The notes below the pieces were generated by a model. The model worked only from the letters and a program-made list of their open reading frames with translations, ran no database searches and was not told where the DNA came from. From Bacteroidales bacterium (GTDB lineage: Bacteria; Bacteroidota; Bacteroidia; Bacteroidales; P3), in NCBI GenBank assembly GCA_017443265.1, contig JAFSOU010000092.1, positions 1-64,000 on the forward strand: a DNA stretch of 64,000 bases, given 5' to 3'. Below, in pieces: positions 13,752 through 29,149 of the stretch. Every line of letters begins with the position of its first letter. Positions within the stretch are counted from its first letter, which is position 1. A program made the position numbers and the translations under genes.

Positions 13752-14261
13752 AACAGATATTTTTTTAAATGTCTATATTTCAATTGTTTTACTTTTGCCG
13801 ATGTTCCAAATCGCAAACATCGAAATTAGCGACAAAAATACGAATTTTATTGCATTTTTCCAAACTTTACTTTGTTTTTTATATAGCACTGTTGTGGAAT
13901 TGGTTGATTTTTAATGTGATAATTGATTTTTTTGAGTGTTTTTGTTTTCCCGTATTTTAAAGTCGTTGTTTTTTTGTAACCGCAAAAGTGTTTTTATTAT
14001 GCTTATGGGCGAAAATGGGGCAGGAGGAATTTTATGAGGCCTTTGTAAAGTGATTGGAAATAGCGCAACAGTCCCGAATTTATATGTTTCCGCACCCTAA
14101 GTTCTTGTTCGAGGTCCGAAAAAGGGGCGGGGAACGGGATGGAAAACGGTTATTTCCTCTGTCGTGGCATTTTATTTTTGTGGATGGTAGTTAATTCAAT
14201 AAAAAAGCGTAAATTTGCACTGTCAAAACATCTTTACTTTTGTTGTAAAGCATTGAATATT
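13752..14261 (+). promoter_or_regulatory. intergenic region with lptE promoter box
   Basis: 510 bases, strongly AT-rich, between divergent genes. The forward box TAAATTTG at 14210-14217 precedes the lptE start by 45 bases; a well-placed TTTG is not seen. No other feature was found in 13752-14190. Confidence 0.4.
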
Positions 14262-18110: not shown

Positions 18111-18214
18111 GTCGCAACGGCCAAAAAACACACCGTTTTTGCACATAAATTGAATTAAATTTAAATATAGTTGGGTGTAATGGACAAAAATTAGGCTGTT
18201 TTTTCAGCCGACTT

Positions 18215-18245
18215 TTTGCTTTTTCAAATTGATTTCGTAATTTTG
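18215..18245 (+). promoter_or_regulatory. Bacteroidota-type promoter inside the 18.2 kb element
   Basis: TTTG (18215-18218), a 19-base spacer and TAATTTTG (18238-18245): an essentially perfect promoter pointing right. Transcription should start near 18251. Confidence 0.7.
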
Positions 18246-18249
18246 CACC

Positions 18250-18358
18250 GTCGATGAAGCGGAGAAAGGCTCTGCTGAGGAGCAACCTTTCGGGGAATAA
18301 GTCGACGAGATATTAAACCGATGAAAAGAGGGCTGCCACAGTGTGTGCAGTTTTTTTT
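18250..18358 (+). ncRNA. candidate small RNA (or 20-codon ORF) with terminator
   Basis: From the predicted start near 18251 to a T8 tract at 18351-18358. GTCGA (18250-18254) pairs with TCGAC (18302-18306), enclosing a hairpin GAAAGG-CTC / GAG-CAA-CCTTTC (18264-18291) with a CAA bulge. A second hairpin (18332-18350) precedes the T tract and would act as a terminator. An alternative is a 20-codon basic peptide from ATG 18254 to TAA 18314-18316. I do not recognise the RNA; its class is unknown. Confidence 0.5.
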
Positions 18359-18435
18359 GTTCATAACATTTGAACGCCGTAATCGTTTGAATATTATGTG
18401 TGTTACAAAGATATTAGCCTGATTTTGTCCATTAC

Positions 18436-29081: not shown

Positions 29082-29149
29082 CTTTGTAAACAAATAATAA
29101 ATAATATATTTGTATCTGAAAAAGGGTAAAAATTGCTATGCCGGAGCGA

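Follow-up and report, generated by a model that had tools for sequence, protein, structure and literature searches.

A structured RNA carried by insertion sequences of several transposase families in Bacteroidia, and an internally deleted IS256-type element that retains its 5' domain

Introduction

Insertion sequences (ISs) are usually assumed to carry only what transposition needs, and we know of no IS RNA that is common to unrelated transposase families. RNA-OUT of IS10 is antisense to the mRNA of the transposase gene (tnp). The IS-encoded RNAs already described include the bridge RNA of IS110 (PMC11208160), the seekRNA of IS1111 (PMC11187229) and the small RNAs of ISPpu9 (PMC8450116), and further conserved structured RNAs linked to IS elements are the omega RNAs of TnpB and IscB and the RAGATH-18 reRNA (PMC11061315). 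Here we describe a small element at positions 18177-18435 of the window, namely the whole 64,000-nucleotide stretch of contig JAFSOU010000092.1 from a Bacteroidales bacterium, together with the RNA family whose 5' domain it carries.

Like RNA-OUT, this RNA is a small RNA from an IS, but it is not complementary to the tnp 5' region. It resembles bridge RNA and seekRNA in being a structured noncoding RNA in a noncoding IS end, whereas its partners are unrelated transposases, mostly of DDE families in elements with inverted repeats and only patchily the DEDD transposase of IS110, and no guide-like match to the ends or flanks was found. Asr9 and Ssr9 of ISPpu9 are likewise IS-encoded, with own promoters and orphan copies away from the IS; the present RNA differs in its lack of tnp-leader pairing and in spanning several IS families and much of the phylum. 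It matches neither the omega RNAs nor the RAGATH-18 reRNA in Rfam, and no TnpB or IscB was noted beside it. No curated model of Rfam 15 matches the RNA even at permissive E-values, and no description of it was found in the open-access full-text literature, where absence is not proof. The family is apparently undescribed and the system could prove to be categorically new.

Results and Discussion

Descent of the window element

The 259-bp element is a transposase-less miniature inverted-repeat transposable element (MITE) derived from an IS256 Zn-variant (IS1249-like) IS of about 1.2 kb. As originally predicted, it is bounded by a perfect 13-bp repeat pair, GTAATGGACAAAA (18177-18189 and 18423-18435), which extends to about 20 bp when one gap is allowed; the ungapped inverted-repeat score was 13, compared to at most 10 in 20 shuffles. 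A search of the same genome with the element gave eight partial matches that are parts of a longer element, and full-length relatives were found in this genome and in related ones. In L003 and L005 the longer element shows one repeat, a 321-codon transposase open reading frame (ORF) and a 3' noncoding part bearing the RNA on the opposite strand. The parent transposase belongs to NCBIfam NF048019, 'IS256 family, variant Zn-binding type' (363.5 bits with a cut-off of 150; E = 8.4e-109). Complete elements of the parent family measure 1.17-1.33 kb, with the RNA positioned 44-109 nt inside one repeat. Full-length elements encode the RNA 3' of the transposase gene, in nearly all cases convergent to it.

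The alignment of the window with a 1227-bp relative (L024) falls into two parts, query positions 29-186 (left end) and 181-293 (transposase-start end), which overlap on GGGCTG. This motif was observed at both breakpoints, a 6-bp microhomology at 18330-18335 of the window, which indicates that about 966 bp between them were deleted. The transposase was lost apart from its first codons, and both repeats, the promoter and RNA domain 1 were kept. The repeats match those of an autonomous parent, and the element is short, has no functional transposase and is derivable by internal deletion. The window element itself is an ordinary MITE, similar to other IS256-type MITEs in its size, lack of transposase and parent-like repeats, and it additionally keeps a promoter and an RNA domain.

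The original prediction of a mobile miniature unit that bears an RNA of its own agrees with these findings, and the search that it proposed, for further copies in the genome and in relatives, found related ones in both. It did not recognize the internally deleted IS256 Zn-variant IS, nor that the window holds no more than the 5' domain of an RNA family whose complete members are longer and pseudoknotted. A predicted terminator was located as a hairpin (18330-18358) with a T8 run on its 3' side (18351-18358), but it is not a designed part of the element. The minus strand from 18364 to 18330 still reads MNKKNCTHCGS, and the hairpin is therefore a product of the deletion junction, antisense to the first transposase codons. 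A single-copy sequence conserved in place across species had been named as the case against mobility. The deleted form is single-copy, yet it is absent from two genomes of the same genus that retain the upstream neighbour gene at 88-89% identity, so that conservation in place does not apply. A strict empty site, of the kind proposed for comparison, is not definable there, as the flank past the neighbour gene diverges.

Table 1. Coordinates of the features annotated in the window element.
Feature	Position	Strand	Remarks
Left terminal inverted repeat, IS256 Zn-variant element	18177..18197	+	Perfect over 13 bp, imperfect over about 20 bp; full-length IS copies have these ends too
Right terminal inverted repeat	18416..18435	-	
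RNA promoter TTTG-N19-TAATTTTG	18215..18245	+	Exact Bacteroidota consensus match
RNA domain 1	18246..18311	+	cmsearch 65 bits, E 7.5e-13; covariation
Helix P1 (window copy)	18249-18255 / 18301-18307	+	
Helix P2 (window copy)	18265-18269 / 18286-18290	+	
Helix P3 (window copy)	18270-18272 / 18280-18282	+	Loop UGCUGAG
Hairpin P4, 5'-strand remnant	18317..18335	+	Ends in deletion junction GGGCTG (18330-18335)
First transposase codons, MNKKNCTHCGS	18330..18364	-	CxxC zinc ribbon; alignments to L002, L003, L024
20-codon ORF MKRRKALLRSNLSGNKSTRY	18254..18316	+	Judged a chance ORF

Fold and covariation of the RNA

In full-length elements the RNA is about 155 nt long and has its own promoter. Helices P1, P2 and P3 form a stack, which is followed by the long hairpin P4 and then by a conserved 3' motif. 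The core has the layout P1-[GAAGCGGA]-P2-GCUCUGCUGGGGAGCAAC-P2'-[AAGGAAUA]-P1'. Covariation among 21 aligned relatives was 0.697, compared to 0.222 in shuffled and at most 0.181 in slid controls, with 90 cells where both sides of a pair have changed. With 35 relatives the value was 0.812 against 0.229 in shuffled alignments. The sequences of P1 and P2 drift freely with compensatory changes. G-U occurs in 21 cells and A-C in seven, and in 29 of 34 hits a TAnnTTTG box clusters 6-9 nt before the start of the model, where 5.7 would be expected over the whole stretch; these two observations together fix the strand of the RNA.

Downstream of the core, the composite hairpin P4 was found in nearly every full unit, and the 3' motif AUG[C/G]CU-n-AAAAAAC follows about 101 nt after the core. 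In domain 1, the 3' side of the internal loop is the pairing partner of this motif. The two form a pseudoknot, for which the combinations AGG/CCU, AGC/GCU and AGU/ACU were found. Its covarying position is paired in 55 of 57 cases (at most 44 in 1000 shuffles) and occurs as G-C, C-G or U-A. Across all pseudoknot cells, 220 of 255 are paired, compared to at most 127 in slid controls.

In the window, the near-perfect promoter of the original prediction turned out to be an exact match of the Bacteroidota type, and the foldable transcript that it proposed corresponds to a predicted RNA at 18246-18359 with a folding energy of -37.3 kcal/mol (z = -3.1). The family would be expressed as a stand-alone transcript of approximately 120-165 nt. 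The window copy is probably a non-functional relic, since it has lost the 3' strand of P4 and the 3' motif that provides the pseudoknot strand.

Distribution and transposase partners

Among 395 Bacteroidia genomes, 59 carry the RNA, and they represent 43 of 197 genera; a previously unannotated RNA family is thereby added to about 15% of the genomes sampled in this class. When genomes were drawn from the whole phylum, the first model found the RNA in 10 of 395. The sampled genomes are often fragmented. In genomes with multiple copies, the distance from the core to the element edge on its upstream side is about 60-150 nt, which places the RNA inside the element. Searches with the RNA model found no real match in plasmid sequences and five good hits in viral contigs.

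Transposases of five families (IS256-Zn, IS256, IS481, IS110 and IS3) were verified beside the RNA, which is a portable module at the tnp 3' end common to unrelated IS families. When loci were sampled by transposase first, the RNA adjoined seven of the eight IS256-Zn loci over the cut-off, two of 30 IS3 loci and one of about 22 IS110 loci, and on these counts IS256-Zn is the main home of the RNA, the other families being patchy holders. The C-G type of the pseudoknot occurs in IS110, IS481 (judged by eye) and part of IS256-Zn, and IS3, IS256 and the majority of IS256-Zn elements have the G-C type; this spread over the families suggests that the RNA has been exchanged between them. An association with IS30 was considered, but it is a single, truncated and uncertain case (L064) with the RNA upstream.

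Most of the RNA copies that lack a transposase are relics, as several have upstream sequence in common with known elements. Helices and promoter were observed to be kept in the relics L155, L156, L159, L162, L163, L176 and L177, from which the transposase is gone. We rejected the general rule that such solo copies are MITEs, with flanking repeats found only in the window copy and in L016. A conserved host RNA gene was likewise rejected: no neighbourhood is common to the solo copies, and some upstream sequence of several of them is shared with known IS ends.

Possible function

We tentatively favour the reading in which the RNA is a trans-acting, structure-dependent regulatory RNA that works via a host factor and from which the IS benefits. 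The factor would be an RNA-binding protein, the ribosome, the polymerase or an RNase. This reading is drawn from the conserved fold with its invariant loops, the own promoter and the indifference to transposase type. A portable pseudoknotted RNA gene, traded among ISs with unrelated transposases and giving them a common benefit through the host that is independent of the chemistry of transposition, is to us plausible if not quite probable, and the RNA may perhaps be the first accessory RNA known from an IS that acts as neither a guide nor an antisense RNA. If so, ISs trade an accessory RNA module phylum-wide, a conserved structured RNA being common to at least five transposase families, and there would be a concrete way into the question of how hosts are controlled or exploited by ISs.

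Several points weigh against this account. The descent of the element, the fold with its covariation, the fixed promoter position and the association with several transposases are established by computation, whereas the role of a host factor is what we infer from them. Searches with an RNA model favour members that keep the structure, and one of the alignments (A2) was itself fitted to the model. The terminator-like, bidirectional P4 could also indicate a role in cis. No target-site duplication is visible in the flanks of the window copy, and duplications of 8 bp are visible in the parent-family members L150 and L160 (flanks read by eye); such duplications are often lost with age, and their absence is compatible with derivation as a MITE. 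Finally, the genome holds one full-length match only, so that the deleted form is single-copy. Multiple short-form copies are typical of successful MITEs and are not needed for a deletion derivative. We nevertheless have high confidence in the account as a whole, that is, descent as a MITE and a conserved, portable, IS-borne RNA family for which a host-factor role is proposed.

Among the alternatives is such a role in cis as a 3' boundary device, in which a convergent promoter and a bidirectional terminator shield the transposase gene from outside transcription. In all 25 listed IS256-Zn cases the RNA is convergent with tnp and lies directly beyond its stop codon, and P4 looks like a terminator that works in both directions. 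Such a device has no need of the conserved loops, the pseudoknot or the 3' motif, and the RNA lies on the same strand as the transposase in IS481 and some IS3 and IS110 elements, which makes this role unlikely. Among these same-strand cases, the RNA was seen to overlap the gene end in L060, L062, L070, L076, L091 and L151.

An antisense regulator of the transposase mRNA, similar to RNA-OUT, is rather improbable. Self-encoded RNAs do govern tnp translation in IS10 and ISPpu9 (PMC8450116), and in convergent elements the 3' end of tnp and the tail of the present RNA overlap. However, pairing of the RNA with its own tnp leader was not significantly above pairing with those of others (p = 0.09 for the whole RNA and 0.88 for the apical part), the free drift of P1 and P2 under compensation does not suit such a regulator, and the orientation relative to tnp differs between families, against a purely antisense role. 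The position in a noncoding IS end, the complex fold and the occurrence beside IS110 transposases recall a transposition guide or cofactor of the bridge RNA or omega RNA kind, an explanation we consider improbable: the RNA accompanies unrelated transposases, including DDE enzymes of elements with inverted repeats, and its longest match to IS ends and flanks is 7.9 nt for its own element and 7.4 nt for others, no clear excess. As a further rival, the RNA would be a passenger of the elements that carry it. The 20-codon basic ORF that had been predicted to overlap the RNA does exist, but that it encodes a peptide is hardly credible, as its start codon is missing in L026, L027 and L054, its frame is changed in L046 and interrupted by an in-frame stop in L011, substitutions track base pairing, and no ORF is conserved among the relatives of the RNA.

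Additional observations

A second RNA-bearing MITE of 335 bp was found in the genome of another family (L016, 1546-1880), with 20-bp repeats and the full 3' motif intact. Several IS256-Zn elements have the terminal repeat twice at the end that carries the RNA, as direct copies spaced about 40 nt from each other, and this doubling was observed in L008 (150-232), L022 (360-425), L006 (1501-1560) and the left ends of L131 and L132. Two RNA copies occur about 2 kb apart in L142 (463-525 and 2610-2675), one beside an IS256-Zn transposase and the other without. A group II intron match (RF00029) lies close to an RNA-carrying IS3 element in L080 (2110-2186). The window contains 13 exact matches to the promoter pattern TTTG-N17-21-TAnnTTTG where 1.8 are expected, an approximately sevenfold excess that includes 14214-14242 and 29083-29112 and that offers a ready map of Bacteroidota promoters.
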